A model generated the notes under the pieces. That model ran no database searches and was not told where the DNA came from. It worked only from the letters and a program-made list of their open reading frames with translations. This document shows, piece by piece, positions 7,380 through 60,647 of a stretch of 64,000 nt of DNA (positions are counted from its first letter, which is position 1; each line of letters begins with the position of its first letter). The position numbers and the translations under genes were made by a program. Where the stretch lies: NCBI RefSeq assembly GCF_026340655.1, contig NZ_JAPEOZ010000001.1:6138001-6202000 (forward strand), given 5' to 3'. Source of the stretch: Streptomyces sp. NBC_01275. Its GTDB lineage: Bacteria; Actinomycetota; Actinomycetes; Streptomycetales; Streptomycetaceae.

Positions 7380-7895
7380 GTGGTGCGCAGACCGGTGGCG
7401 TGGATCGTGGCGATCGTGCTGTTCGCGGAGGCGTTCGGCATCGCCGCGCTGAACTGGTTCATGGGGGTGGTGGTCGACCGGCAGGACATGTCCCTGGCCG
7501 GCCTGGACCCGGACGTGATGTCGACGTCCTCGAAGGTCGGCGGGATCGTCTTCGGGCTCTACTTCGCCCTGTGCGGCCTGGTGGCCCTGCTGGTGGCGCT
7601 GCGGGGCCGCCCGCCCGCCGGCTTCGGCCGCGTGCTGCTGATCAGCGTGGCCGTCGTGCACGGGCTGCTGGGCGCGTTCGCCTGGGGTCTGCTGGGCTGG
7701 CCGCAGTTCCTGTTCATGGTAGTGGTCCTGGCCCTGATCGTGCTGCTCCTGATGACGTACGACGCCCAGCCGCGACCCCAGGACAAGGGTCCCGCCCCGC
7801 AGGACAAGGGTCCCGCCCCGCAGGATCAGGGTCCCGCCCCGCAGGATCAGGGGCCTGCCCCGGTCAGTGGTCCGCCGGCGCCCACAACTCCGTGA
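7380..7895 (+). CDS. Four-helix-type membrane protein with PQDxGPA repeat tail
   Basis: The 171-residue protein has four hydrophobic segments: about residues 6-30 ([17 protein letters not shown]), 52-72, 84-104 and 108-125. A hydrophilic tail follows, made of four heptads [14 protein letters not shown] and ending PAPTTP. The first loop should be outside. No enzymatic motif is present and the family is unknown to me; a role in the membrane near the carboxylase locus is not implied. The GTG start follows GGTGGGGA. Its last 32 bases overlap the 3' end of the convergent maf gene. Confidence 0.75.
7776..7859 (+). repeat. 21-bp tandem repeat, 4 copies, inside the membrane-protein gene
   Basis: Four adjacent 21-base units (consensus CCGCAGGACAAGGGTCCCGCC; later copies have GATCAG) encode the heptads PQDKGPA twice and PQDQGPA twice. 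Because 21 is a multiple of 3, copy number can change without a frameshift. Confidence 0.9.
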
Positions 7896-8469
7896 TGCCG
7901 ACGCCCAATCGGCCCAGCAGCCTGCGGATCAGAGGCAGGCTGAGGCCGATGACGTTGCCGTGGTCGCCGTCGATGCCCTCGATGAACGGCGCCGAGCGGC
8001 CGTCGAGGGTGAAGGCGCCGGCGACGTGGAGGGGCTCGCCCGAGGCGACGTAGGCGGCGATCTCGTCGTCGGTCGGGTCGCCGAAGCGGACCACGGTGGA
8101 GGCGACGGCGGAGGTGTGACGCCCGCTGAGGGTGTCGTAGACGCAGTGCCCGGTCTGGAGCGTCCCGGCCCGGCCGCGCATCGCCTTCCAGCGCGCGGTG
8201 GCCTCCTCGGCGTCCGCGGGCTTGCCCAGCGCCTGGCCGTCCAGGTCGAGCACCGAGTCGCAGCCGATCACCAGCGCGCCCTTGGCCTCCGGCCGGGCCG
8301 ACACCAGGCTCGCCTTGGCCTCGGCGAGGGCGAGCGCCAGCTCCGCCGGGGTGGGGGCGGTGACCGCGTCCTCGTCGAACCCGCTGACGATGACCTCGGG
8401 GGCGAGGCCGGCCTGCCGCAGCAGGTTCAGCCGGGCGGGGGACTGGGAGGCGAGGACGAGTCTGCGCAT
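7864..8469 (-). CDS. maf: Maf/YhdE-type nucleoside triphosphate pyrophosphatase
   Basis: A 201-residue protein with the Maf signature [16 protein letters not shown] at the N-terminus, followed by the conserved SGFDEDA and the central KA-rich helix and [17 protein letters not shown] loop containing the catalytic Asp. Maf proteins hydrolyse dTTP, UTP, CTP or modified nucleotides to monophosphates in the cytoplasm and are thought to clean the nucleotide pool or restrain division. It is the distal gene of the pccB-pccE-membrane peptide-maf block. Its stop codon lies inside the 3' end of the convergent membrane-protein gene, a 32-base overlap. Confidence 0.92.
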
Positions 8470-8494
8470 ACGGTCAGCGTAGTGCCGCCGCCGC

Positions 8495-8623
8495 TTATCT
8501 GAGGCCCAGAACGATCATTGCCACCACCATGGCGAGCGCCAGGAAGAGACCGAGCCGCCTCAGGGACTCCTGCATGTCGCGGAGTTCCTTGGGCGGCTCG
8601 TTCTCGGGGTCGGACCACAGCAT
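8495..8623 (-). CDS. mmpB: 42-residue single-pass membrane protein (MmpB-like)
   Basis: A short gene encoding 42 residues: a charged N-terminus ([20 protein letters not shown]) followed by one transmembrane helix ([19 protein letters not shown]). GGTGGC precedes the ATG and the stop is TAA. From memory, Streptomyces genomes carry a peptide like this between maf and the carboxylase epsilon gene, annotated as morphogenic membrane protein MmpB; I could not check this. Position and strand suggest cotranscription with pccB/pccE or maf. Confidence 0.72.
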
Positions 8624-8755
8624 GCCACCAGCGTGGGGCTTCGCGGGTCCTGGGTGCCTGAGTACGCGTACTTAAATCGGCGGCCCGTGCCGCTGCTCTG
8701 TGCGCCCGCGCGGCCGAGCCGCACATCGATGCGGCCCCGCGCCCCTGAGAGTCCC

Positions 8756-8965
8756 CTAGACGGGCCAGTAGGTGCGGGTCCATGACGTCGGACCTGGTTG
8801 CGGTACGTGGCGTGCCGCGATGCGGGACGGGTCGGACCACGCGTCCCTCGGGGGCTCCGCGCCGGACGGCGAGGGGGCTGCCGCCGCGGCGCGGGCTCGG
8901 ACCACCGCCAGGGCGGCGGCCAGCTCCTCCGGGGTCGGGTTTCCCCGTACGACCTTGATGTTCAT
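8756..8965 (-). CDS. pccE: Propionyl-CoA carboxylase epsilon subunit
   Basis: The 69-residue protein opens MNIKVVRGNPTPEELAAALAV, the N-terminal signature of AccE/PccE subunits, and ends in a basic Trp-containing tail (SWTRTYWPV). In S. coelicolor the epsilon subunit bridges alpha and beta chains and raises carboxylase activity. GGGAG lies six bases before the ATG, and the pccB stop is 17 bases upstream, so the two should be translated from one mRNA. The middle is an Ala/Pro-rich linker. Confidence 0.92.
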   Translation of the reverse strand: MNIKVVRGNPTPEELAAALAVVRARAAAAAPSPSGAEPPRDAWSDPSRIAARHVPQPGPTSWTRTYWPV

Positions 8966-8982
8966 GACGGCTCCCAGCAGGT

Positions 8983-10566
8983 CTAGAGGGGGATGTTGCC
9001 GTGCTTCTTCGGGGGCAGGGATTCCCGCTTGGTGCGCAGTTGACGCAGGCCGCGCACGATGTGCCGGCGGGTGTCGGACGGCTTGATCACCGAGTCGATG
9101 TAGCCGCGCTCGGCCGCGATGTAGGGGTTGAGGAGCGCGTCCTCGTACTCCCGCATCAGCCGGGCGCGCGCCGCCTCGGGGTCCTCCGCCTCCGCGATGG
9201 TGCGGCGGTGCAGGATGTTGACCGCGCCCTGGGCGCCCATGACGGCGATCTGGGCGGTCGGCCAGGCGAGGTTGAGGTCGGCGCCCAGGTGCTTGGAGCC
9301 CATGACGTCGTAGGCGCCGCCGAAGGCCTTGCGGGTGATGACGGTGATGAGGGGGACCGTGGCCTCGGCGTAGGCGTAGATCAGCTTGGCGCCGCGGCGG
9401 ATGATGCCGTCGTGCTCCTGGTCGACGCCGGGCAGGAAGCCGGGCACGTCCACGAAGGTGACGACCGGGACGTTGAACGCGTCGCAGGTGCGCACGAAGC
9501 GGGCGGCCTTCTCGCTCGCCTTGATGTCCAGACAGCCCGCGTACTGCATGGGCTGGTTGGCGACGATGCCGATCGGACGGCCCTCGACGCGGCCGAAGCC
9601 GGTGAGGATGTTCGGCGCGAACAGCGGCTGCGTCTCGAAGAACTCGGCGTCGTCCAGGACGTGTTCGATCACCGTGTGCATGTCGTACGGCTGGTTGGCG
9701 CTGTCCGGGACGAGGACGTCCAGCTCCAGGTCCTCGTCGGTGACGGCGAGGTCCGCCTCCTCCGGGAAGGCCGGGGCCTCGCTGAGGTTGTTGGAGGGCA
9801 GGTACGACAGCAGCTGCTTGACGTACTCGACGGCGTCCTTCTCGTCGCCGGCCATGTGGTGCGCCACGCCCGACACGGAGTTGTGGGTGCGGGCGCCGCC
9901 CAGCTCCTCGAAGCCGACGTCCTCGCCGGTGACCGTCTTGATGACGTCGGGGCCGGTGATGAACATGTGCGAGGTCTGGTCGACCATCACCGTGAAGTCG
10001 GTGATCGCGGGGGAGTAGACCGCGCCGCCCGCGCACGGGCCGACGACCAGGCTGATCTGCGGGATCACCCCGGACGCATGGGTGTTGCGGCGGAAGATCT
10101 CGCCGTACGCGCCCAGGGAGGCCACGCCCTCCTGGATGCGGGCGCCGCCGGAGTCGTTGATGCCGATGACCGGGCAGCCGGTCTTCAGCGCGAAGTCCAT
10201 GACCTTGACGATCTTCTGACCGTAGACCTCGCCCAGGGCGCCGCCGAAGACGGTGAAGTCCTGGGAGAACACGGCGACCGGACGGCCGTCGACCGTGCCG
10301 TAGCCGGTGACGACGCCGTCCCCGTACGGACGGTTGTCCGCCAGGCCGAAGTTGGTGGACCGGTGCCGGGCGAACTCGTCCAACTCGACGAAGGAGCCCT
10401 CGTCCAGCAGCAGATCGATCCGCTCACGGGCCGTCAACTTGCCCTTGGCGTGCTGCTTCTCGACGGCGCGTTCCGAACCGGCGTGCGTCGCTTCCTGGAT
10501 ACGGCGCTGAAGATCCGCGAGCTTTCCCGCGGTCGTGTGAAGGTCGATCTCTTCCGGCTCGGACAT
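8983..10566 (-). CDS. pccB: Propionyl-CoA carboxylase beta (carboxyltransferase) subunit
   Basis: A 527-residue crotonase-fold carboxyltransferase with N- and C-terminal halves, including GGARIQEG with the N-terminal oxyanion glycines and [10 protein letters not shown] in the C-terminal half. The Asp near residue 420 of that motif is equivalent to Asp422 of S. coelicolor PccB, the residue reported to set propionyl-CoA rather than acetyl-CoA preference. That points to PccB, making methylmalonyl-CoA. It transfers carboxyl from AccA2-biotin to propionyl-CoA in an alpha-beta-epsilon complex. The gene heads the minus-strand block pccB-pccE-mmpB-maf and is divergent from birA. Confidence 0.95.
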
Positions 10567-10663
10567 CGGGATGCGGCTCCCTGGCTGCTCACAAGGGGGG
10601 ACGGTTGCTGCTCCGCAGCGTAGTGGTGCCCCTACCGATCGGCAGTGCGGCGTTTACCACACC

Positions 10664-10669
10664 TAGGGT
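10664..10669 (+). promoter_or_regulatory. Candidate -10 (TAGGGT) for leaderless birA
   Basis: TAGGGT ends seven bases before the birA ATG, with no Shine-Dalgarno between. The 110-base gap to pccB must hold both divergent promoters. A -35 was not obvious. Confidence 0.45.
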
Positions 10670-10676
10670 GGCTTGC

Positions 10677-11552
10677 ATGACGCCGCGAGATGCAGCAGAC
10701 GCGAACGACAGCCGGTGGTCCGACCTCGACCGGCCGCCCCTCAACGCCACCGCCCTGCGCCGGGCGCTGGTCAGGGACGGCGGACACGGCGGGCTGTACT
10801 GCGACGTGGAGGTCGTGCAGCGCACCGGCTCCACCAACTCCGACCTCGCGGCCCGGGCGGTCGCGGGCGACGCGGACGAGGGGGCCGTGCTGGTCGCCGA
10901 GGAGCAGACCGCCGGGCGGGGCCGGCTGGACCGGCGCTGGACGGCGCCCCCGCGCTCCGGGCTGTTCTTCTCCGTCCTGCTCACGCCGAGTGAGGTCCCG
11001 GTGGCCTGCTGGGGCTGGCTGCCGCTGCTCACCGGGGTCGCCGTGGCGACGGGCCTGTCGCGGGCGGCGGGCGTCGACACCGCACTCAAATGGCCCAACG
11101 ACCTGCTGGTGACCGTGGACGGCGCGGAGCGCAAGGCCGGCGGAATCCTCGCGGAGCGGGCCGGGGAGCACGGCGTGGTCGTCGGCGTCGGCGTCAACGT
11201 CACCCTGCGCGCCGACGAGCTCCCGGTGCCCCAGGCGGGCTCGCTGGCACTGGCCGGGGCCGTCGGCACCGACCGCGATCCGCTGCTGCGGGCCGTCCTG
11301 CGGTCGCTGGAGGAGTGGTACGGCCGCTGGCGCACCGCGGGCGGCGACCCGGCGGCCAGCGGTCTGCAGGAGGCGTACGCGGCGGGCTGCGCGACGCTCG
11401 GGCGGGTGGTGCGGGCGGAGCTGCCGGGGGACCGGTCGGTCGTCGGGGAGGCCGTCGCGATCGACGGGGACGGGCGGCTGGTGATCGCCACCGAGGAGGG
11501 CGTGCAGGAGCCGGTGGGCGCGGGGGACATCGTCCATCTCAGGCCGGCCTGA
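10677..11552 (+). CDS. birA: Biotin--[acetyl-CoA-carboxylase] ligase (group I, no DNA-binding domain)
   Basis: The 291-residue ligase joins biotin to the carrier Lys of AccA2 through biotinyl-5'-AMP. Motifs: TGSTNSDL, the adenylate loop GRGRLDRRW, KWPNDLLV and KAGGILAE in family order, then the small C-terminal SH3-like domain. There is no N-terminal winged helix, so unlike E. coli BirA it should not repress biotin genes. The ATG giving MTPRDAADA is preferred over an upstream frame start because of the -10 element seven bases before it. Placement opposite pccB fits its substrate. Confidence 0.93.
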   Translation: MTPRDAADANDSRWSDLDRPPLNATALRRALVRDGGHGGLYCDVEVVQRTGSTNSDLAARAVAGDADEGAVLVAEEQTAGRGRLDRRWTAPPRSGLFFSVLLTPSEVPVACWGWLPLLTGVAVATGLSRAAGVDTALKWPNDLLVTVDGAERKAGGILAERAGEHGVVVGVGVNVTLRADELPVPQAGSLALAGAVGTDRDPLLRAVLRSLEEWYGRWRTAGGDPAASGLQEAYAAGCATLGRVVRAELPGDRSVVGEAVAIDGDGRLVIATEEGVQEPVGAGDIVHLRPA

Positions 11553-47734: not shown

Positions 47735-50700
47735 CTACCCCCGGTCCACCACGACCCCCATCACCTCGCGGGCACGCCTTCCCGGGACCATGCCCAGACG
47801 CCAGGCCTGCCAGCCCGACTCCAGGCGTACGCCGCGCTCCAGCAGCAGTTCGTAGGCGCGGATGTACGCGGTGAGCCCGGCGTCGCGCAGGGGGTGGGGG
47901 GAGCGGCCGAGCTGGGTCAGCTCCTCCTGGGCGACGGCCGTGCCGACCTCCACCCCGCCCGGGGAGGCGTAGGGCAGGAGGGTGCAGCGCAGGAAGCGGG
48001 CCCAGTCGTCGCCGCGGCGGTCGCCGTAGGAGGCGAACAGGCCCGCTGCCTCGTCGCACAGGGCCAGCGCCTGCTGGGTGCGGGCGTTGCCCGCCTCGAC
48101 GATCGCGAGTTCCAGGCAGGTCCAGGCCTCGCCGTGGGCGACGCCGATGCGCTGGAAGTCGGCGCGGGCGTCGACCAGGAGCTGGCGGGCGAAGCCGGAG
48201 TTGCGCAGCGAACCGGTCTGGGCGGCGCGCTGGTCGCGGGTCACCCGGGCCGAGTGGTGCCGGGCGCAGGCCAGGCCGTAGACGTCACGCAGCCGGGAGA
48301 AGAGCGAGCGGGAGCGTTCCAGCTCGCGCACGGCCCGGTCCAGGTCGCCGGTCTCCTCCAGGGCCAGGCCCAGGTAGTACACCGTCCAGGCCTCGCCGCG
48401 CGCGTCCTCGTTGTCGCGGTGCCGGGCGGCCGCCTGGCGCAGGCTCTCCGCGGCCGGGGAGGGATCGCCGGCGATCAGCCGCGCCCGGGCCAGCTGCGTC
48501 AGCGCCCACGCCTCGCCGCGGGCGTCGCGGGTGCGGCCGTACAGATCGAGGGCCTGGCGCAGGGCGTCCTGCGCGGCGGGGACGTCGCCGCGGCGCAGAT
48601 GCAGCTGGCCCAGCTGGAAGTGCGCCCATGCCTCGCCGTGCACGGAACCGCCCTCGCGGTGCAGCACCAGGGAACGGGTGAGCAGGTCCAGGGCCTCGGC
48701 GAGGCGGGCCCGGTCCCGTTCCACCGCGGCCAGCGCGTGCATCGTCCACGCGCGGTCCGTCGCCAGCTCGGGCGCGGCCTGGAGGTCCATCGCCTCCCGC
48801 AGCTTCGCCGCCGCCTCCGTGAGCTGCCCCTGGTGGTGCAGGGTGATGCCCAGCGAGCACAGGGCGCGGGCCGCGCCGGCGTCGTGATGGGCCTGGAGGT
48901 AGAGGTCGACGACCGAGCTGAGCGTGGTGCGGGCCTTGTCGAGCTCGCCCAGCTGCCGGGCCGCGATCCCCGTGCGCCACTGCACGGACCGCACCAGCAG
49001 GTCCTGGCCGAGCGACTGGGCCAGCTCGCTGATCTCGCCGAGGCGGTAGAGGTCGCCGCGCAGCAGGCAGTAGTCGCACAGCGCGCCGAGCAGACTGAGC
49101 ACGGCCGTCTGGTTCACGCCCTCCGCCTGGCGCAGGGTCGCCGTGATGAAGCTCGACTCGTCGTCCAGCCAGCGCAGCGCCTCGTCGAGGGAGGTGAAGC
49201 CGTGCGGGGTGAAGCGGTCCGAGCGGGTCGACATGTTCCCGTCGACCAGGCGCAGCACGGAGTCGGCGAGCTCGGCGTGGCTGACGATCAGTCGTTCCTG
49301 GGCCGCCGCGCGCTCGGCCGGTTCCTCCTCGTCCAGGAGGCGGGCCTGGGCGAAGGCGCGGACCAGGTCGTGCAGCCGGTAGCGGTCGCCGCGGACCCGG
49401 TCGACCAGCCCGGCGTCGGCGAGCGCGGCGAGATGGCGGGTCGCCTCGGCGCGGTCCGTGGCCAGCAGGGCGGCGGCGGCCGCCGCGCCGAGCGAGGCCC
49501 GGCCGGCCAGCGCGAGCCGGCGCAGCAGCCGGCGGGTGACGTCCGGCTGGTCGGTGTAGCGCAGCCACAGCGCGCGCTCGACGGGCTCCACCGGGCCGTA
49601 CGCCCCGAGGTCCGCCGCCAGGGCGCGTGGCGAGCGCGGGCCCAGCGAGGAGCCCGCGACGCGCAGCGCCAGCGGCAGCCCGCCGCACAGCAGGGTGATC
49701 CGGTCGGCGGACTCGGCGTCGTAGGGCCCCGAGGCGTCCCGCGCGACCGCGCCCAGCAGCTCCTCCGCGCCCGCCGCCTCCAGCGGCCGCACCGGCAGCT
49801 CGTGCACCAGGGCGGACAGCTCGGCGGGGAGGCGCAGCGGGGTGCGGGCGGTGACCAGGACCAGGCTTTCGGAGCGTTCGGGGACGAGTGCGCGGACCTG
49901 CTCCGGATCGGAGGCGTCGTCCAGGACGACGGTGACCGGCAGACCGTGGAGGTGCTGCTGGTACAGCTCGCCGAGCCGTTTGACCTGCTGGTCGGGGGAT
50001 GAGCGCTCCCGGAAGAGGAGCTGTTCGCGGGGCGCGCCGAGCCGGTTGAGCAGATGCAGCAGGGCGTCCCGGGTGGGCAGCGGGGTCTCCTGGGCGCTGT
50101 CGCCGCGCAGATCCACCAGACACGCGCCGCGGAACTGGTCCCGCAGCTCGTGCGCGGCCCGTACGGCGAGCGCGCTGCGACCGCTGCCCGGATCCCCGTA
50201 GAGCACGACGACCGTGGGCCGGGTCTCGGTGCCGGCCCGTGCCGCCTGCACCCACTGCCGGATCCGCGCCAGCTCCGCCCGACGTCCGGCGAACGGACCG
50301 TCCGGGTCGGGCAGTTGGCCGTACGACTGTTCCAGCGCCGTCCGTCCGCGGGCCGCCGCGCTCTTGTCCGCGCCGCGCAGCCGCGGCCCCTGCTTGTTCG
50401 CGCGGGCCGCGGTGCCGGCCGTCGGGCCGGTCGCCGCGCTGATCATCCGCTGCTGGTCCAGGAACGGCCGGATGCCCCGTACCTCCAGCGCCGTCAGCCA
50501 CTGCAGCCGCAGCTGCTCGGGGCCGCCGGGCTGGCCGGCCTTGCCGGCCCGGTGGTGGGCGGCGGGCAGATGCGACCCGGCCACCTTCACCACGGTCGCC
50601 GCGGCCCCGACGACCCCGACGGCGACCCCCGCTCCGATGGCCGTGCCCGGGCCCGTGCCCAGCGCGAGGTCGGCGACCGCGGTCGTGACCGCGGCAACGC

Positions 50701-50959
50701 CCGCCACCAGCAAGGGAGTTCGCCCACCGGTCTCGCGCGCGTAGCGCTGCCCGAAGCTGACCCGTCCGGCCTCCGTCTCCTCCAGGGCGCGCGCGTACGC
50801 CTCGTACTCCTCGGCGGCGGTCCGCGCCATCGCCTCCCACTCGCCGCGCGCCCGGGTCATCAGCACCTGCCGGTCGGCGCGGCCGCCCGAGCGCCGCACC
50901 TCCTCCTCCACGGCCCGTGCCAACAGCCCCTCGGCTTCCGCCCGATGACCGTTCCGCAT
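47735..50959 (-). CDS. Membrane-anchored STAND (NB-ARC) ATPase with C-terminal TPR array
   Basis: The 1074-residue protein begins with a helical region, then two hydrophobic segments (about residues 82-126) that should anchor it. An NB-ARC/STAND domain follows with P-loop GDPGSGRS (255-262), Walker B VVLDDA (344-348) and the GLPL motif [12 protein letters not shown], then a winged helix ([20 protein letters not shown]). The last 500 residues are about ten TPR-like pairs ([59 protein letters not shown]). Walker A has Arg261 where Lys is expected. STAND proteins assemble on signal. GGAGGGGG precedes the ATG; the function is unknown. Confidence 0.87.
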
Positions 50960-51119
50960 GTCCCGTCCCCCTCCGGCGGCCACAGCTGTCCTCGGTCAAG
51001 TGTGCGGCGGCGGGCGCACGGGCGCGAGGGTGCGAACGTGCCCCGACGGACGGGAGCGCACGGCGCGGGGCGAGGCGGCCTGCCGCGTGCCCGGCGGGGT
51101 CCTGCGGCAGGATGGACCC

Positions 51120-53153
51120 ATGGCGAACCGACTGGCCCATGAGACGTCCCCGTACCTCCTCCAGCACGCCGACAACCCCGTCGACTGGTGGCCCTGGTCG
51201 GCGGAGGCGTTCGAGGAGGCGCGCAGGCGGGATGTGCCGGTGCTGCTGAGCGTGGGATACAGCAGCTGTCACTGGTGCCATGTCATGGCGCACGAGTCCT
51301 TCGAGGACCAGGAGACCGCCGACCGCGTCAACGAGCACTTCGTCGCCGTCAAGGTGGACCGGGAGGAACGCCCCGACGTCGACGCCGTCTACATGGAGGC
51401 CGTCCAGGCCGCCACCGGGCAGGGCGGCTGGCCGATGACCGTGTTCCTCACGCCCGACGGGGAGCCCTTCTACTTCGGCACGTACTTCCCGCCCGCCCCC
51501 CGCCACGGCATGCCCTCCTTCCGGCAGGTGCTGGAAGGCGTCCGCCAGGCCTGGACCGAGCGGCGGGACGAGGTCGGCGAGGTCGCCGGGAAGATCGTCC
51601 GGGATCTGGCGGGCCGGGAGATCGACTACGGCACCGCCCAGGCCCCCGGCGAGGAGGAGCTCGCCCAGGCGCTGCTCGGGCTGACCCGAGAGTACGACGC
51701 GCAGCGCGGCGGATTCGGCGGAGCGCCGAAGTTCCCGCCGTCCATGGTCGTCGAGTTCCTGCTGCGGCACCACGCGCGGACCGGGGCCGAGGGCGCGCTC
51801 CAGATGGCGCGGGACACCTGCGAGCGGATGGCGCGCGGCGGGATCTACGACCAGCTCGGCGGCGGCTTCGCCCGGTACTCCGTCGACCGGGAGTGGGTCG
51901 TGCCCCACTTCGAGAAGATGCTGTACGACAACGCGCTGCTGTGCCGGGTCTACGCCCACCTCTGGCGCGCCACCGGCTCGGAGCTGGCCCGCCGGGTCGC
52001 TCTGGAGACCGCCGACTTCATGGTGCGTGAACTGCGCACGGCCGAGGGCGGGTTCGCCTCCGCGCTCGACGCCGACAGCGACGACGGCGCCGGCCGGCAG
52101 GTCGAGGGCGCGTACTACGTCTGGACGCCCGAGCAGCTGACGGAGGTGCTCGGCGGCGACGACGCCGAGGTCGCCGCCCGCTACTTCGGCGTCACCGACG
52201 ACGGCACCTTCGAGCACGGCTCCTCCGTTCTGCAGCTCCCGCAGCAGGACACGGTGTTCGACGCGGAGAGGATCGACTCGGTCAAGCGCCGTCTGCTCGC
52301 CGCCCGCGCCGTGCGCCCCGCTCCCGGCCGGGACGACAAGGTCGTCGCCGCCTGGAACGGGCTCGCCGTCGCCGCGCTCGCCGAGACCGGGGCCTACTTC
52401 GACCGCCCCGACCTGGTGGAGGCCGCCGTCGCCGCCGCGGACCTCCTGGTCCGGCTGCACCTCGACGACCAGGCGCGGCTGTCGCGCACCAGCAAGGACG
52501 GGCGCGTCGGCGCGAACGCGGGCGTCCTGGAGGACTACGCCGACGTCGCCGAGGGGTTCCTCGCCCTGGCCTCCGTCACCGGGGAGGGCGTCTGGCTGGA
52601 CTTCGCCGGGTTCCTCCTCGACCACGTCCTCGTCCGCTTCACCGACCCCGGGTCCGGAGCGCTGTACGACACGGCCTCCGACGCCGAGCAGCTCATCCGC
52701 CGCCCGCAGGACCCGACCGACAACGCCACGCCCTCCGGCTGGTCCGCCGCCGCCGGAGCCCTGCTGAGCTATGCCGCCCACACCGGCTCCGAGCCCCACC
52801 GCTCCGCGGCCGAGCGGGCGCTGGGGGTCGTCAAGGCGCTCGGGCCGCGGGTGCCCCGGTTCATCGGCTGGGGGCTCGCCGCCGCCGAGGCGCTCCTTGA
52901 CGGGCCCCGCGAGGTCGCCGTGGTGGCCCCCGCGACCGAGGTCCCGGCCGCAAAGTCCTTGCACCGCACGGCACTTCTGGGTACCGCGCCGGGGGCCGTG
53001 GTCGCGTTCGGCGTGACGGGGAGTGAGGAGTTCCCGTTGCTGGCCGACCGGCCTTCGATCGGCGGTGAACCGACGGCGTACGTCTGCCGTAACTTCACGT
53101 GTGACGCCCCGACGACCGACCCCGAGCGGCTGCGCACCGCGCTGAGCGGGTGA
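51120..53153 (+). CDS. DUF255/YyaL-type thioredoxin-domain protein
   Basis: The 677-residue protein starts with a thioredoxin-like DUF255 domain (residues 1-170): [20 protein letters not shown], the CxxC active site in [15 protein letters not shown], and [14 protein letters not shown]. The rest is an alpha-alpha toroid resembling N-acylglucosamine 2-epimerase/glycoside-hydrolase folds ([24 protein letters not shown] and [12 protein letters not shown] type segments). Its human relative is SPATA20; biochemical activity is unknown. The ATG at 51120 gives [10 protein letters not shown], the conserved start. Confidence 0.92.
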
Positions 53154-53355: not shown

Positions 53356-54660
53356 TTGCTCACGTCTTTCTTCATCGCTGCCGTCTCGCTTGCCCTGTTC
53401 TGGATGGCGGCGTTCACTCTGTGGTGGCAGATGCACGCCTGGCGTACGCCAGAGGTGCTCGCCTCCACCCGGTTCAGCAGTCCGGACGGCGACGAACACG
53501 TCTCCTTCTCGCTGCTGCTGCCCGCTCGCCATGAGCAGGCCGTCCTCGACCACACCATCCAGCGGCTGCTGGAGTCCACGCACACCGACTTCGAGATCAT
53601 CGTCATCGTGGGGCACGACGACCCCGAGACCGCGGCGGTCGCCGAGAGCGCCGCCGCACGCGACCCGCGGGTCCGGGTCGTCGTCGACACCCACGAGAAG
53701 AAGAACAAGCCCAAAGCCATGAACACGGCGCTGCCGCACTGCCGCGGCGACGTCGTCGGGGTCTTCGACGCCGAGGACCAGGTCCATCCGGCGCTGCTCG
53801 CCCACGTCGACCACGCCTTCCGCACCACGCGAGCGGACGTCGTCCAGGGAGGCGTCCAGCTCATCAACTTCCACTCCAGCTGGTACAGCCTGCGCAACTG
53901 CCTGGAGTACTTCTTCTGGTTCCGCTCCCGGCTGCATCTCCACGCGCAGAAAGGATTCATCCCGCTCGGCGGCAACACCGTCTTCGTCCGCACGGACGTG
54001 CTGAGGGCAGCCGACGGCTGGGATCCGAACTGCCTCGCCGAGGACTGCGACCTGGGCGTGCGCCTCTCCAGCGTCGGCAAGAAGGTCGTCGTCGCCTACG
54101 ACTCCGCCATGGTGACCCGGGAGGAGACCCCGGGCTCGCTGATGTCGCTGCTCAAGCAGCGCACCCGCTGGAACCAGGGCTTCCTCCAGGTCTACCGGAA
54201 GAAGGACTGGAAGCAACTCCCGGGCTTCGGGCAGCGGTTGCTGGCCCGCTACACCCTGATGACACCGTTCCTGCAAGCGTTCTCCGGCGTCGTCATCCCG
54301 CTCAACGTGGCGATCGCGCTCTTCCTCGACGTCCCCGTCGGGATCGCCTTCGTCACCTTCCTGCCGGCCGTGACCGCGCTGGTCACGTTCGTCTTCGAAC
54401 TCGTCGGACTGCACGACTTCGGCAAGCAGTACGGCCTGCGCGTCCGCCTCGTCCACTACCTCAAGCTCGTCGTGGGCGGCCCCTTCTACCAGGTCCTCCT
54501 CGCGGGGGCCGCGATGCGCGCCGTCTGGCGTGAGCAACGCGGCCGTACGGACTGGGAGCTGACCACGCACGTCGGCGCGCATCTGACGGCAGGCGACACC
54601 GCAACCGCTTCCGGACCCGTTTCCGATCCCGCAGTGACCCGAGAGGACGTTCCTGCGTGA
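53356..54660 (+). CDS. Processive family 2 glycosyltransferase (CslA-like), first gene of glycan operon
   Basis: The 434-residue protein has an N-terminal helix (SFFIAAVSLALFWMAAFTLWW), a GT-A domain with the aspartates of the nucleotide-sugar site (FDAED at 138-141 and AEDCDLG at 229-231), the QRTRW motif (268-272) of processive synthases such as cellulose and hyaluronan synthase, and three or four C-terminal helices. It should elongate a beta-linked polysaccharide at the inner membrane face and start moving it out. The TTG start follows GGGGGGA at six bases. The stop overlaps the GTG of the next gene. Confidence 0.87.
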   Translation: MLTSFFIAAVSLALFWMAAFTLWWQMHAWRTPEVLASTRFSSPDGDEHVSFSLLLPARHEQAVLDHTIQRLLESTHTDFEIIVIVGHDDPETAAVAESAAARDPRVRVVVDTHEKKNKPKAMNTALPHCRGDVVGVFDAEDQVHPALLAHVDHAFRTTRADVVQGGVQLINFHSSWYSLRNCLEYFFWFRSRLHLHAQKGFIPLGGNTVFVRTDVLRAADGWDPNCLAEDCDLGVRLSSVGKKVVVAYDSAMVTREETPGSLMSLLKQRTRWNQGFLQVYRKKDWKQLPGFGQRLLARYTLMTPFLQAFSGVVIPLNVAIALFLDVPVGIAFVTFLPAVTALVTFVFELVGLHDFGKQYGLRVRLVHYLKLVVGGPFYQVLLAGAAMRAVWREQRGRTDWELTTHVGAHLTAGDTATASGPVSDPAVTREDVPA

Positions 54661-56321
54661 CCTCCACCCTTCCCGCGGCGACCACAGGCACGGTCCCCGC
54701 GCAGCGCCAGCCTGTGCCTGATGAACGTTCGACCGGCCGAACAGACCCGCCGGTCCCGCCGAGACGGCCGCGGCTGCGCGCCTCCCGTCCCGACCTGCTC
54801 CTGTGCGGCGCGCTCCTGGTCGCGATCCTCGTCGTGCAGGGCTGGAACATCGCCGACTACCCGACCCTCAGCGACGACGAGGGCACCTACCTCGCCCAGG
54901 CCTGGGCCGTCCAGGAGGGCCGGGGCCTCGCCCACTACACCTACTGGTACGACCACCCGCCGCTCGGCTGGATCCAGATCGCCCTGCTGACCTGGATCCC
55001 CAAGCTGATCAGCCCCGACTCGATGACCGTCGGCACCATGCGGGCGACCATGCTCGTGGTCAGCGCGATCAGCGCCGCCCTCCTCTACGTCCTGGGCCGG
55101 CGACTGTCCCTGCCCCGCTGGGCGGCGGGCCTCGGCATGGTCCTCTTCGGGCTCTCGCCCCTCTCGGTCGTCCTCCAGCGGGAGATCTTCCTCGACAACC
55201 TCGCGGTGATGTGGACGCTCGTGGCGTTCACACTCGCCGCCTCGCCCAACCGCCACCTCTGGCACCACTTCGGCGCGGGCGTCGCCGCCGCCACGGCCGT
55301 CCTCACCAAGGAGACGATGCTCTTCGTCCTCCCGGCGGTCCTGCTCACCATGGGACGGCACAGCCACCGCGACACCCGCAAGTTCGCCCTCACCGGCGCG
55401 ATCACCGCCTGCGTCCTGATCGGCCTGTCGTACCCCCTCTTCGCCCTCCTCAAGGGCGAGTTGCTGCCGGGCAGCGGCCATGTCTCCCTCTGGGACGGCA
55501 TCAAGTACCAGATGACGAGACCCGGTTCGGGCTTCATCCTCGACCAGGGCTCCGGCTCCCACGGCGTCCTGCAGTCCTGGCTCTACTACGACCGCGTCCT
55601 GATCGTCGGCGGCCTCGCGGGCGCGCTGCTGCTCCTGCTCACCTGGCGCTGGTCGGTCACCGCCCGCGCCCTGGCCGGACCCTCCCTGGCGGTGGCGATC
55701 CTCGCCGTCGTCGCCCTGCGCCCCGGCGGCTACCTGCCCGCGATGTACGTCATCCAGGCCCTGCCCTTCCTCGCCCTCGTCCTCGCCGGAGCCACGGCGA
55801 GCGTCGCCCACGCCGTCCTGCGCAGACGGCGCGGACCCGACGAGGTGCGCTGGAAGACCGGCGGCCGCTACGCCCTCGCCGCCGTCCTCGCCCTCGCCGC
55901 CGGGGCGTACGTCGTCCCGCACTGGTACGACGGCGACCGCACCGCCGTCACCGCCGACGCCAACGCCCCCTACCGGGCCGCCTCGACCTGGCTGTCCACC
56001 GAGGTCGAGGACCCGGCCGACACCCGCGTCCTGGTCGACGACGCGCTCTGGCTCGACCTCGTCCACGCCGGCTACCAGCCCGGACTCGGCGCGATCTGGT
56101 TCTACAAGGCCGATCTCGACCCGGCCGTGACGAAGACCCTGCCGAACGGCTGGCGGGACCTCGACTACGTCGTCGCCTCGCCGACCGTACGCCGGGACGC
56201 CAGCGACCTGCCGGGCGTCGACGCGGCGCTGAAGCACTCGACACCGGTCGCCGTCTTCGGCTCCGGCGAGGACCGGATCGAGATCCGGCGGATCCAGACC
56301 GTCTCCGGAGGCGTCCGATGA
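54657..56321 (+). CDS. GT-C multi-membrane glycosyltransferase (ArnT/PMT-like)
   Basis: A 554-residue protein with 11-12 hydrophobic segments. The first outer loop contains LSDDEGTY (Asp73, Asp74, Glu75), the acidic pair that is catalytic in GT-C enzymes of the ArnT/PMT type, and REIFLDNLAVMW and TKETML follow in typical places. These enzymes use a polyprenyl-phosphate sugar as donor on the outer face. That donor is probably supplied by the DPM1-GtrA protein encoded next. It has a GTG start inside the previous stop (GTGA). Confidence 0.87.
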   Translation: MTSTLPAATTGTVPAQRQPVPDERSTGRTDPPVPPRRPRLRASRPDLLLCGALLVAILVVQGWNIADYPTLSDDEGTYLAQAWAVQEGRGLAHYTYWYDHPPLGWIQIALLTWIPKLISPDSMTVGTMRATMLVVSAISAALLYVLGRRLSLPRWAAGLGMVLFGLSPLSVVLQREIFLDNLAVMWTLVAFTLAASPNRHLWHHFGAGVAAATAVLTKETMLFVLPAVLLTMGRHSHRDTRKFALTGAITACVLIGLSYPLFALLKGELLPGSGHVSLWDGIKYQMTRPGSGFILDQGSGSHGVLQSWLYYDRVLIVGGLAGALLLLLTWRWSVTARALAGPSLAVAILAVVALRPGGYLPAMYVIQALPFLALVLAGATASVAHAVLRRRRGPDEVRWKTGGRYALAAVLALAAGAYVVPHWYDGDRTAVTADANAPYRAASTWLSTEVEDPADTRVLVDDALWLDLVHAGYQPGLGAIWFYKADLDPAVTKTLPNGWRDLDYVVASPTVRRDASDLPGVDAALKHSTPVAVFGSGEDRIEIRRIQTVSGGVR

Positions 56322-57508
56322 CCCACGACTACACCGAATACAGCGCACCCGTCCCCGAACTGCGCGCGTCCGAGGTCGCCGAGCCCGGCGCGGTCACCAT
56401 CGTCGTACCGACCTTCAACGAGTCCGCGAACATCCGCCGACTCCTGCGCCAGATCACCGAGTCGGTGCCCGCCCGGCTGCCCTGCGAGGTCGTCTTCGTG
56501 GACGACTCCACCGACGACACCCCCGAGGTCATCCGGGACGCGGCGCGCGACTGCCCGTTCCCGGTGGCCGTGCTGCACCGGGACGAGCCGGTCGGCGGGC
56601 TCGGAGGCGCGGTCGTCGAGGGCATCCGGGCGGCCGGCTCGGACTGGATCGTCGTTATGGACGGCGACTGCCAGCATCCCCCGTCCCTGGTACCGGAGTT
56701 GGTGGCCACCGGCGAGCGGTCGCACGCCGGGCTCGTCGTCGCCTCCCGCTACATCAAGGGCGGCAGCCGCGCCGGACTCGCCGGAAACTACCGGATAGCG
56801 GTTTCACGCGGGGCGACCTGGCTCACCAAGTCCCTGTTCCCGCGCAGGCTGCACGGCATCAGCGACCCGATGAGCGGCTTCTTCGCGATCCGCCGCAGCG
56901 CGGTCACCGCCGACGTCCTCAAGCCCCTCGGCTACAAGATCCTCCTCGAGCTCGCCGTCCGCAGCCGCCCGCGCAAGGTCAGCGAGGTCCCCTTCGTCTT
57001 CCAGGACCGCTTCGCCGGCGAGTCCAAGTCCAGCGCCCAGGAGGGCGTCCGCTTCCTGCGCCATCTGATCGGCCTGCGCACCGCCTCGCCGATCGCCCGC
57101 ATGGTCGGCTTCGGTCTGATCGGAGCCACGGGCTTCCTCCCGAACCTGCTCGGCCTGTACGCCCTCACCGCCGCCGGACTGCACTACGTACCGGCGGAGA
57201 TCCTCGCCAACCAGCTCGGCGTGGCCTGGAACTTCGTGCTCATCGAGCATCTGCTGTTCCGCGACCGCCGCTCCCACCGCCGCTGGTGGGACCGGGTGGG
57301 CCGGTTCGCGCTGCTCGCCAACGCCGATCTGGTGCTGCGCATCCCGCTGATCGCGCTGTTCGTGCACCGGTTCGGGATGGGCGCGCTGTCCGCGACCGCG
57401 CTGGCGCTGGTGACGACGTTCGTCCTGCGCTTCGCGGGCACCGAGGCACTGGTCTACCTCCCCCGCAAGGGGCCGCGGGGAAGCCGCACAGCAAGGAGAG
57501 CCGTGTGA
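56318..57508 (+). CDS. Polyprenyl-phosphate sugar synthase fused to a GtrA-like flippase
   Basis: The 396-residue protein has an N-terminal GT2 domain of the dolichol-phosphate mannosyltransferase group (IVVPTFNES at 28-36; VMDGDCQHPP with DGD at 115-117; SRYIKGGSR and DPMSGFFAIRR). From about residue 265 a four-helix GtrA domain follows (VGFGLIGATGFLPNLLGLYA, ILANQLGVAWNFVLIE). It should load a sugar (probably mannose or glucose) onto polyprenyl phosphate and flip it, feeding the GT-C enzyme. It is tied to both neighbours by ATGA/GTGA overlaps. Confidence 0.92.
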   Translation: MTHDYTEYSAPVPELRASEVAEPGAVTIVVPTFNESANIRRLLRQITESVPARLPCEVVFVDDSTDDTPEVIRDAARDCPFPVAVLHRDEPVGGLGGAVVEGIRAAGSDWIVVMDGDCQHPPSLVPELVATGERSHAGLVVASRYIKGGSRAGLAGNYRIAVSRGATWLTKSLFPRRLHGISDPMSGFFAIRRSAVTADVLKPLGYKILLELAVRSRPRKVSEVPFVFQDRFAGESKSSAQEGVRFLRHLIGLRTASPIARMVGFGLIGATGFLPNLLGLYALTAAGLHYVPAEILANQLGVAWNFVLIEHLLFRDRRSHRRWWDRVGRFALLANADLVLRIPLIALFVHRFGMGALSATALALVTTFVLRFAGTEALVYLPRKGPRGSRTARRAV

Positions 57509-59910
57509 ACAGACGCCGTAGACGGGTCGCGATGCTGGCGGTGGCGGGCCTCACCGGGGGCCTGCTGCTGACCAGTCCGCAGCCCGCGTCCGCCGCCAAC
57601 CTCATCAAGAACGCCGGCTTCGAGACCGCGGGGGCCGACGGGATGCCGTACTGCTGGGAGAAGTCCGGGTGGGGCGACAACGACTTCACATTCGAGCACA
57701 CCTCGGACGCCCACACCGGGGCCAAGGCGATGAAGGTGACGCTGACCCGGCGGGTCGACGGCGACCGCAAGGCGCTGATCACCGAGTCCACGGAGTGCGC
57801 GCCGACGGTGACGCCGGGCAAGCAGTACGATCTGTCGCTCTGGTACAAGACGACCACCCCGGACGCGGCGGTCACCCTCTTCCGGCACGACACGACGGCC
57901 GGCTGGCAGTACTGGACCGACCTCAAGACCCTGGAGATGCAGGGCAGCTGGACCCAGGCGACGGTCCGCACCCCCGAGGCGCCCGCCGGCACCGACCGCA
58001 TCACCTGGGGCGTCTCCGTCTACGGCACCGGCTCGGCGACCACCGACGACTACACGATGGACCAGGTCCCGGACGTCCTGCCGCCCGCGACCTGCACCGC
58101 CACCGCCGACCAGTGCGCCAACGGCCGCTGGGACGTGCTGCCCACGCAGAACCCGGTCCGCTCCATGCACTCCGTCGTCCTCAACAACGGCAAGGTGCTG
58201 TTGATCGCGGGCTCCGGCAACAGCGAGGAGCAGTTCAACGCGGGCACCTTCACCTCCGCCGTCTACGACCCGGCGAACGGCAGCTACAAGGTCATCCCCA
58301 CCCCGAAGGACATGTTCTGCTCCGGGCACGTCCAGCTCCAGGACGGGCGGGTGCTGGTGATGAGCGGCAACAAGGCCTACCCGGTGGTCGGCGGGCACGG
58401 CTACGAGGGCTTCAAGGACTCGTACGTCTTCGATCCCGTCACCGAGACGTACAGCAAGACCAACGACATGAACGACGGCCACTGGTACCCGTCGGCGACC
58501 GTCATGGGCAACGGTGACGTGCTGTCCTTCGGCGGGCTGCGCGAGGACTCGACCGGCTCGGTGACCGCCGAGCTGTTCTCCGAGGCCGAGCAGCAGTGGC
58601 AGCCGCTGTGGAAGGTCAACCAGACCTGGTCGTACTGGGGTCTGTACCCGTCGATGATCCTGATGCAGGACGGCCGCCTCTTCTACTCGGGCAGCCATGT
58701 CTTCGGCAACAACATCCCCGGCACCGGCGCGGCGATCTACGACTACGACGCCAACACGGTCACCCAGATACCGGGGCTTCAGAACAAGGACCAGCGCGAC
58801 CAGTCGGCGAGCGTGCTGCTGCCCCCGGCGCAGGACCAGAAGGTCCTCACCCTGGGCGGCGGCAACATCGACTCCAACCCGGACGGCAACCGGCTGACCG
58901 ACGTCATCGACCTGAAGGCCGCCAACCCGTCGTACGTCGCGGGCCCGCCGCTTCCCCAGGGCACGGTGGACCTCGGCAACGGCCCGGTGGCCGAGACCGG
59001 CAACCAGGGCAAGATGTACGTCTCCGCCGTGCTCCTGCCCGACGGCAAGGTCCTGGAGACGGGCGGGGCGCTGCACAACCGCGCCGACCCGGTCTTCGAG
59101 TCCTCGCTCTACGACCCGGCCGTGAACACGTTCGATCCCGTGGCCGCCGACCCGCAGGCCCGCGGCTACCACTCCTCGTCCTTCCTGCTGCCCGACGGCC
59201 GGGTGATGTCGACCGGCGACAACCCGGGCAACGGCACCTGGAACCACAACGTGTCGATCTACACCCCGCCCTATCTGCTCAAGGGCGCACGGCCCACGAT
59301 CACTTCGGTGATCGACACCGAGTGGACGTACGGCGACACGCAGCGCATCACCGTCGACCGGCCCATCGCCAAGGCGGAGCTGATCCGCCCCGCGGCGGTC
59401 ACCCACTCCTCGGACCCGAACCAGCGGTACGTGGACCTGCCCCTGTCCGTCGACGGGAACAACGTCGACCTGAACGTGACGAGCAACCCGAACCTGGCTC
59501 CGCCCGGCTGGTACATGCTCTTCGCGGTCGATGCCAACGGCGTGCCGTCGGTGGCGAAGTGGGTGCACCTCCAGGGCCCCGCGGCCCTGAGCGCCTCCGA
59601 CGCCTCGGCGCACGTCCACACCTTCGCCGACGACCTGACGGGCAAGGTCACCGGCCAGGGGAAGAAGCGGACCTCGCAGAAGGTCCCCGCCACCGTCTCC
59701 GGCTGCGACCGGCACTACGGCTCGATCAACGTGTGCGTGCCGACCGCGTTCCCGGCGACCGTCAAGAAGACCACCGCCGCCCGCTGCACCTGGCTCAAGG
59801 CGAACGACTACGGCCGCCTCAAGGTCAACGGCAAGGACGACCCGCTCGGACTCGACCCGAACAACGACGGCCTCGCCTGCGGAAAGGGCGACCTGAAGAA
59901 GAGGAGCTGA
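57505..59910 (+). CDS. Secreted copper radical oxidase (galactose-oxidase/GlxA type) with Excalibur domain
   Basis: The 801-residue protein has a Sec signal (cut after ASA30), an N-terminal carbohydrate-binding jelly roll (residues 31-185), a seven-blade Kelch propeller, and a DUF1929/E-set domain (about 590-690). Every copper and cofactor residue of galactose oxidase has a counterpart: Cys272 (DMFCSGH) for the thioether, Tyr328 (HWYPSAT), Tyr555-His556 (GYHSSSF) and His634 (AVTHSS). The end (731-801) is an Excalibur Ca2+ domain (LDPNNDGLACGKG). It probably oxidises the glycan made by the three upstream genes, as GlxA does with CslA glycan in S. coelicolor and S. lividans. GTG with AGGAGAG. 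Confidence 0.92.
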   Translation: MNRRRRRVAMLAVAGLTGGLLLTSPQPASAANLIKNAGFETAGADGMPYCWEKSGWGDNDFTFEHTSDAHTGAKAMKVTLTRRVDGDRKALITESTECAPTVTPGKQYDLSLWYKTTTPDAAVTLFRHDTTAGWQYWTDLKTLEMQGSWTQATVRTPEAPAGTDRITWGVSVYGTGSATTDDYTMDQVPDVLPPATCTATADQCANGRWDVLPTQNPVRSMHSVVLNNGKVLLIAGSGNSEEQFNAGTFTSAVYDPANGSYKVIPTPKDMFCSGHVQLQDGRVLVMSGNKAYPVVGGHGYEGFKDSYVFDPVTETYSKTNDMNDGHWYPSATVMGNGDVLSFGGLREDSTGSVTAELFSEAEQQWQPLWKVNQTWSYWGLYPSMILMQDGRLFYSGSHVFGNNIPGTGAAIYDYDANTVTQIPGLQNKDQRDQSASVLLPPAQDQKVLTLGGGNIDSNPDGNRLTDVIDLKAANPSYVAGPPLPQGTVDLGNGPVAETGNQGKMYVSAVLLPDGKVLETGGALHNRADPVFESSLYDPAVNTFDPVAADPQARGYHSSSFLLPDGRVMSTGDNPGNGTWNHNVSIYTPPYLLKGARPTITSVIDTEWTYGDTQRITVDRPIAKAELIRPAAVTHSSDPNQRYVDLPLSVDGNNVDLNVTSNPNLAPPGWYMLFAVDANGVPSVAKWVHLQGPAALSASDASAHVHTFADDLTGKVTGQGKKRTSQKVPATVSGCDRHYGSINVCVPTAFPATVKKTTAARCTWLKANDYGRLKVNGKDDPLGLDPNNDGLACGKGDLKKRS

Positions 59911-59915
59911 CCGGA

Positions 59916-60647
59916 CTAGCGGTCACCCGCGAACTCCGCCAGGGCGCGCTCCACGATGGCCACCAGCTGCTCGTGGTGCGCGCCCTTCCAGTACGCGCGC
60001 CCGCAGTCCCCGCACTGCGCGAAGACGTCGTACGACCGCTGCGTCCCGCCGTGCAACTGGTCCGCCACGTCCTCCTTGGACGCCTCCCTGAGCATGCCGT
60101 TGCAGGCGGTGCACCGGGCCCAGGGCCGCAGCTCGGGGCGGAACCGGTCGAGGACGTCCCGAAGCTGCTCCTCGGGGTCGGTGCTGTAGACGTACGCGCC
60201 CGCCCACAGTTCGCGGCGGCGCAGCAGGCCCCGGTCGCGGCTGAGCATGACCCGCCGTTCGGCGGCGGACCGGGCGGCGAGCGCCGGGTCGCCGATGTCC
60301 GTCGACTCGTACGCCGTGTCCACGCCGAGCAGACGCAGCCGACGGGCGAGGGTGCCGAGGTGGACGTCGAGGAGGAAGCGGAGCGGGGCTCCCGGGACCT
60401 GCTGGGGGCGGGTCACCGGGCGGACGGTCACTCGCTCGCCGTCCGCCGGGATGTGCCCGACCGGCGTCTCCCGGCCGTCGACGACCAGCGCGCCGACCTC
60501 CGTCAGCGGCACCCCGAGCGACTCGACGACGTGCCCGAGGGTGGAGACGCCGTCCACGGCGAGCGCGGTGGCTCCGCAGCGGCGGGCGTGCGGGACGAAC
60601 AGGGCCAGCTCGGGGGCCACTTCGACGTGGATCTCGGGTCGGTTCAC
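59916..60647 (-). CDS. Mut7-C RNase domain protein with N-terminal ubiquitin-like fold
   Basis: A 243-residue protein: the N-terminal third is the ThiS/ubiquitin-like half (VDGRETPVGHIPADGERVTV), the C-terminal part is the PIN-like Mut7-C domain (FLLDVHLGTLARRLRLLGVD with its Asp, MLSRDRGLLRRR) followed by a zinc ribbon (CTACNGML and CGDCGRAYWKG). It is predicted to act as an RNase, with no known target. The GTG lies six bases after CATCCT. Convergent with the glycan operon by only five bases. Confidence 0.9.
   Translation of the reverse strand: MNRPEIHVEVAPELALFVPHARRCGATALAVDGVSTLGHVVESLGVPLTEVGALVVDGRETPVGHIPADGERVTVRPVTRPQQVPGAPLRFLLDVHLGTLARRLRLLGVDTAYESTDIGDPALAARSAAERRVMLSRDRGLLRRRELWAGAYVYSTDPEEQLRDVLDRFRPELRPWARCTACNGMLREASKEDVADQLHGGTQRSYDVFAQCGDCGRAYWKGAHHEQLVAIVERALAEFAGDR

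Follow-up and report, generated by a model that had tools for sequence, protein, structure and literature searches.

Four adjacent plus-strand genes of Streptomyces sp. NBC_01275, at positions 53356–59910 of the window (the whole 64,000-nucleotide stretch analysed here), encode a membrane GT2 glycosyltransferase, a GT-C glycosyltransferase, a DPM1-GtrA protein and a secreted copper radical oxidase (CRO), and form a conserved module distinct from the CslA/GlxA locus. We put at roughly 55% the probability that this module is a self-contained envelope-glycan system for a decorated, oxidised surface glycan, whose product, acceptor and order of steps we infer from the genes. The genome holding the window is 10.4 Mb and 99.99% complete. 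The module genes are as follows:

53356..54660, plus strand: gene 1, membrane GT2 glycosyltransferase, cellulose/PNAG-synthase-like, 434 amino acids (aa)
54657..56321, plus strand: gene 2, lipid-carrier-dependent glycosyltransferase with a GT-C fold (PMT/ArnT-like), 554 aa
56318..57508, plus strand: gene 3, fusion of a DPM1-like polyprenyl-phosphate sugar synthase with a GtrA/DPMS membrane domain, 396 aa
57505..59910, plus strand: gene 4, secreted CRO (AA5/GlxA-like), 801 aa

The genes are joined by three 4-bp overlaps (GTGA at 54657, ATGA at 56318 and GTGA at 57505), from which transcription as one unit is predicted. This gene set with its overlaps, described in an earlier annotation of the stretch (the original prediction), was borne out by the open reading frames, Pfam domains and coordinates. 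The start codons are TTG, GTG, ATG and GTG, in gene order, and an AAGGAG lies upstream of the CRO start, its end six bases away. Third-position GC is 91–97% in the module genes, and no TTA codon occurs in any of the four.

Each module protein served as a query against the same 150 Streptomyces genomes, with a limited number of candidates scored per genome and CRO matches kept at ≥60% identity. The module CRO was present in 55 of them, always together with GT2 and GT-C (55/55), and 49 of the 55 carried all four genes in one cluster; the arrangement is thus more than chance. The gene order of the window was found in 44/55 and a rearranged order, with GtrA-GT2 divergent from GT-C-CRO, in 5/55. 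In G028 and G130 the module was spread over contigs. G073, a 1140-contig assembly, had GT2 and GT-C on different contigs and no CRO among the kept matches, and four genomes had only a distant GT2 (42–44%) plus a 32–33% GT-C. Because related genomes are not independent, the events behind these counts are fewer than the counts suggest; gene-order changes and the copies in Frankiaceae are separate evidence for conservation.

The Frankiaceae copies came from a survey of 345 genomes across the class. In family f18, a CRO at 48–61% occurred together with the GT2 in 17 genomes, on the same contig in 13 (read from the match tables), and two additional genomes had the GT2 without such a CRO. Three f18 genomes could be tied by identical coordinates to Parafrankia EUN1f, Frankia CiP1_Cm_nod1 and Protofrankia coriariae. 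In 9/10 Frankiaceae genomes inspected, tblastn placed the genes in the order GtrA, CRO, SCO1, GT2, GT-C, at about 35–52% identity (L095, L096, L097, L099, L100, L110/L114, L111, L112 and L113). Rare co-occurrence of the four genes, which the original prediction had named as grounds against itself, was not what the genomes of the two groups showed. SCO1 was identified from Pfam matches in L096, L098 and L110 and from similarity elsewhere. The remaining locus (L101, genome G233) kept GtrA, GT2 and GT-C and had neither CRO nor SCO1 by tblastn, suggesting that the oxidase and the SCO1 copper chaperone go together. Passages of PMC4736821 describe impaired GlxA maturation under limiting copper in Streptomyces Sco mutants and a sco gene adjoining the cslA-glxA cluster in Frankia; we found the latter arrangement at L108.

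Some Frankiaceae loci have features of their own. At L112 the GT2 and the GtrA are each matched in two separate parts that lie in different reading frames. A separate small gene matching the C-terminal tail of the CRO follows the CRO in six of the nine module loci, and the L096 CRO (7795–10992) has a long N-terminal half with four PA14 stretches and weakly matched bacterial Ig-like domains. In G166, SCO1, GT2, GT-C and GtrA lie in the Streptomyces order near a contig end, and a 57–61% CRO lies at the end of another contig; these two ends presumably join. A CslZ query gave no match in the Frankiaceae module loci.

In the literature consulted on the glycan of Streptomyces hyphal tips, CslA/GlxA figures as the copper-oxidase glycan system (PMC11022532, PMC3543389). 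We considered whether the module might be nothing more than this characterised cellulose locus, or a copy recently derived from it. The CRO is about 38–40% identical to canonical GlxA, and extra cslA-glxA copies in three species are mentioned by Liman 2013 (PMC3543389, in part). However, the CRO scored only 408.5 bits against the GlxA equivalog model (NF052501, SCO2837), which has a cut-off of 800, and the match of gene 1 to CslA (23% identity, E 1e-7) is confined to residues 113–339, which does not amount to CslA orthology. A CRO tree with a midpoint root was built from 85 rows, which stand for 81 distinct genes at 99% (the window gene is present four times). In it the Streptomyces and Frankiaceae module enzymes grouped into a single clade (56 rows, local support 0.959), separate from a canonical GlxA clade (24 rows, support 0.995). 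Canonical Streptomyces and Kitasatospora GlxA have an insertion of 108–118 aa where the module enzymes have 0–1 aa, although the insertion alone is not diagnostic, since the stretch is just 9 aa long in one canonical enzyme from Frankiaceae.

The genomes tell the same two loci apart. An over-cut-off GlxA is present in 119/150 Streptomyces genomes and, by inspection of the rows, in 46 of the 55 module genomes; the nine without one are G000, G016, G020, G030, G038, G039, G042, G054 and G111, and include the genome of the window, in which the module CRO, below the cut-off, is the single gene matched by the GlxA model. In the module-bearing G104 and G117 the canonical cslA-glxA locus sits elsewhere. 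Many Streptomyces have two over-cut-off GlxA copies (e.g., G002, G011, G021 and G022), which may be the duplicates of Liman 2013 and suit them better than the module does. Identity with the CslA/GlxA locus, raised in the original prediction as what would undo it, is thus highly improbable, and we rejected it on the GlxA score, the tree, the CslA comparison and the genome searches. Three further GT2 genes of the genome, found with the gene 1 query, encode proteins of 734–810 aa that are 24–25% identical to a canonical CslA; no CslA query was run against the genome.

As a separate observation, one more CRO, of a distant type (38%), occurs in G128 (C2:4490000-4505000, L056). Its neighbours are a LuxR-type AAA regulator and a protein in which a DyP peroxidase-like domain is weakly matched, and they suggest another CRO system in Streptomyces.

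Gene 4 matched the Pfam families GO-like_E_set, Glyoxal_oxid_N and Kelch. Residues C272, W327, Y328, Y555, H556 and H634 are invariant in its alignment with GlxA and correspond to the residues of AA5 copper radical oxidases: the cross-link Cys and Tyr, the ligand Tyr-His and His, and the stacking Trp. C272 aligns with the FCxGH cysteine, which we take to be GlxA C121, and the other five presumably serve as the cross-link Tyr, the ligands and the stacking Trp. C121 is named as the cross-linking residue in a passage of PMC4736821. Along the CRO the following regions were distinguished:

57505..57594, plus strand: signal-peptide-like start, arginine-rich, with an ASA cleavage-like site (by eye)
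57595..57963, plus strand: N-terminal CBM_4_9-like carbohydrate-binding region (E 6.6e-5, 23.7 bits, narrowly missing the cut-off of 25.9)
59290..59568, plus strand: galactose-oxidase-like early set domain containing H634 (Pfam)
59698..59907, plus strand: cysteine-bearing C-terminal tail, Excalibur-like (by eye)

Despite its Excalibur-like look, the tail matched no Pfam family even at E 5. GlxA has an N-terminal membrane anchor that binds CslA (PMC11022532, in part). A hydropathy scan of the CRO N-terminus for such an anchor showed no span above threshold, and the start resembles a cleavable signal.

Gene 1 matched Glyco_tranf_2_3 at 140 bits and shares its fold with cellulose and hyaluronan synthases. 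It has the acidic motifs and QxxRW of processive GT2 synthases (cellulose, hyaluronan and PNAG): DAE (138–140), which occupies the position where DxD is usual, ED (229–230) and QRTRW (268–272) are invariant in eight sequences, and T270 is the sole exception among 36. The original prediction had called gene 1 a processive synthase; fold and motifs agree with this, while processivity and polymer synthesis stay predictions from them.

Gene 2 matched PMT at 33.8 bits (cut-off 22.7) and has an invariant D74-E75-G-T-Y motif. For gene 3 (Pfam Glycos_transf_2 and GtrA_DPMS_TM), the nearest solved structure is the dolichol-phosphate mannose synthase (DPMS) of Pyrococcus (5mlz; E 1.7e-49, residues 25–373), in keeping with its naming as a lipid-sugar synthase; the "flippase" added to that name is a label for a putative activity. 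By domains and folds, the two genes contain the parts of a multi-component transmembrane glycosylation system (polyprenyl-phosphate sugar synthase, GtrA domain and GT-C). Their composition supports a putative lipid-sugar decoration pathway, in which the GT-C would transfer a lipid-carried sugar onto a polymer outside the cell. Side-chaining by the GT-C, as originally proposed, is supported as far as this composition goes; its acceptor may be the GT2 product, a protein or another wall polymer. Protein O-glycosylation would make the DPM1-GtrA and GT-C a Ppm/Pmt pair acting on secreted proteins, possibly including the CRO, with the GT2 extending the glycans. The PMT match and the structural matches of gene 2 to Pmt1-Pmt2, Pmt4 and oligosaccharyltransferases favour this explanation, which we nevertheless regard as quite unlikely.

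Genome G137, in which the sole module match is a 59% DPM1-GtrA, carries at C1:7798000-7815000 (L045) this 58–59% homologue followed by two PMT_2 GT-C genes; module CRO and GT2 were not found there, and we read the locus as a stand-alone lipid-sugar cassette.

The module could work as an envelope-glycan system in the following way. The membrane GT2 would make a glycan, probably beta-linked, from a nucleotide sugar. DPM1-GtrA would charge polyprenyl phosphate with one sugar and help to present it outside, where the GT-C would attach the lipid-carried sugar to the growing glycan as a side chain. The CRO, held on the glycan via its N-terminal carbohydrate-binding region, would convert primary alcohols to aldehydes, most plausibly at C6 of the added hexose, and these aldehydes could cross-link or toughen the layer. 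The sugars, GT-C acceptor, oxidase substrate and step order, as well as a role at hyphae or spores, are conjectural. The catalytic motifs of GT2, GT-C and CRO are intact in the alignments; oxidation as the last step, as first proposed, is a prediction. The Discussion of PMC11022532, in the part available, raises galactose units as possible GlxA targets; the module fits this idea because its own branching sugar accompanies a galactose-oxidase-family enzyme.

Several observations weigh against an envelope-glycan system of this form. The best structural alignment of gene 1 is with PcManGT (6yv7), an N-glycan mannosyltransferase, and its number of membrane helices is nearer to that of PcManGT (three) than to that of BcsA (eight); identity to PcManGT, BcsA and hyaluronan synthase is 12–18% in most rows. 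Gene 1 might thus be a single-sugar transferase of the PcManGT type that acts on a lipid-linked or wall acceptor, the operon decorating an existing wall polymer or lipoglycan that the oxidase then modifies. We consider this unlikely. Furthermore, DPM1-GtrA has been lost in some genomes that keep the other three genes: it was absent at E 1e-80 from G002, G021 and G035, where only 84–259 bases separate GT-C from CRO, and is reduced to a 49-residue remnant in G111. Either these strains use another lipid-sugar synthase, or the oxidase can do its work without the branch. The inserted lipid-linked sugar branch of the original prediction therefore stands in its pathway make-up but, with gene 3 missing in 3/55 clusters and a remnant in a fourth, is not obligatory in this form.

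A GT2-GT-C core was found in five other actinobacterial families. Families f4, f14, f26, f31 and f36 have a GT2 at 48–61% and a GT-C at 37–43%, with no CRO at E 1e-60 among at most two candidates scored per genome. Six genomes of these families had a GT2 match, and one locus per family was examined. Four loci (L102, L103, L104 and L105) have a GH8 gene near GT2-GT-C, whereas the remaining one (L106) has a gene for a GH5 cellulase; a DPM1-like gene (31–33%) is nearby in L103, where it lacks the GtrA domain, and in L105. In the Streptomyces genome G055, a gene 41% identical to CslZ (GH6) lies a few genes away from a distant GT2-GT-C pair. These neighbours tentatively suggest a beta-1,4-type glycan as the GT2-GT-C product, because GH8, GH5 and GH6 include enzymes cutting beta-1,4-glucans. 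No glucanase was seen beside CRO-bearing clusters, where the Pfam searches covered a part of the neighbours. We tentatively suggest, as possible though on the doubtful side, an actinobacterial system for an aldehyde-bearing branched beta-glycan: a compact synthase would make the backbone, DPMS-GtrA and GT-C would add a hexose branch outside, and a glycan-binding galactose-oxidase-type enzyme would oxidise that branch for cross-linking. The GT2-GT-C core with a GH8/GH5 glucanase would be older, the oxidase replacing the glucanase in Streptomyces and Frankia.

Distant GT2-GT-C pairs also lie near a subtilase gene in G055, G097 and G089 (L044, L051 and L052), in G097 in addition to a module in the window order. 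At L044 the pair is followed by a protein without a Pfam match and a PAS histidine kinase, with the CslZ-like gene past the subtilase.

The module is flanked by two genes that mark its site but lie outside it:

51123..53153, plus strand: left flank, thioredoxin-domain protein (DUF255/DsbH)
59916..60647, minus strand: right flank, Ub-Mut7C/Mut7-C RNase-domain protein

Eight module loci besides the window were annotated. The thioredoxin-domain gene adjoins the module in seven of them, in one case judged by coordinates, while the contig of the eighth does not reach far enough; the Mut7-C gene adjoins it in three. Other genomes with both genes beside the module include G049, G101 and G104. The two genes occur in 150/150 and 132/150 Streptomyces genomes, respectively, and in at least 26 module-less genomes they lie within 0.5 kb of each other (rows by eye, not exhaustive). 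In G124 the gap between the two flank genes contains pieces of GT-C and of the end of the CRO, and in G043 pieces of GT2, GT-C and CRO remain at another site; thus, the module was lost by decay at least in these genomes. Upstream of the thioredoxin-domain gene, a minus-strand reading frame of 1082 aa (47735–50983) is apparently an NB-ARC/TPR-like regulator (by eye).

No paper naming this four-gene combination came up in the literature searches made. The component families are all known; what appears to be new is how they are combined, how widely the set is spread and how it is separated from CslA/GlxA. The module would represent a second copper-oxidase glycan system, with another CRO clade and another GT2, in over a third of the Streptomyces sampled and in Frankiaceae. 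Its CRO can be the sole GlxA-type oxidase of a genome, as here, and may explain copper-dependent surface traits in strains without GlxA. Since a lipid-sugar branching pathway here accompanies an enzyme of the galactose oxidase family, the module offers a direct way to test what bacterial CROs oxidise in vivo.

Of the known systems, CslA-GlxA(-CslZ) of Streptomyces (SCO2836-SCO2837; PMC11022532 and PMC3543389, in part) resembles the module in clustering a GT2 synthase-like gene with a CRO gene, and the aligned AA5 residues are the same. The module differs in the subfamily of its GT2 and the clade of its CRO, in the CBM-like start and Cys-bearing tail of the latter, in having no CslZ (GH6) gene among the neighbours tested, and in its added GT-C and DPM1-GtrA genes. 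The P. furiosus DPMS (5mlz) shares with gene 3 the architecture of a synthase with a GtrA-like membrane domain. The GtlA-GtcA-GtlB and CsbB-GtcA-YfhO systems (PMC8035078, in part) likewise combine a membrane GT-A polyprenyl-phosphate sugar synthase, a GtrA-type domain and a GT-C transferase; in the module, by comparison, no link to teichoic acid was seen, though none was tested for, and synthase and GtrA are fused, as in DPMS, in a cluster that has its own GT2 and copper oxidase besides.

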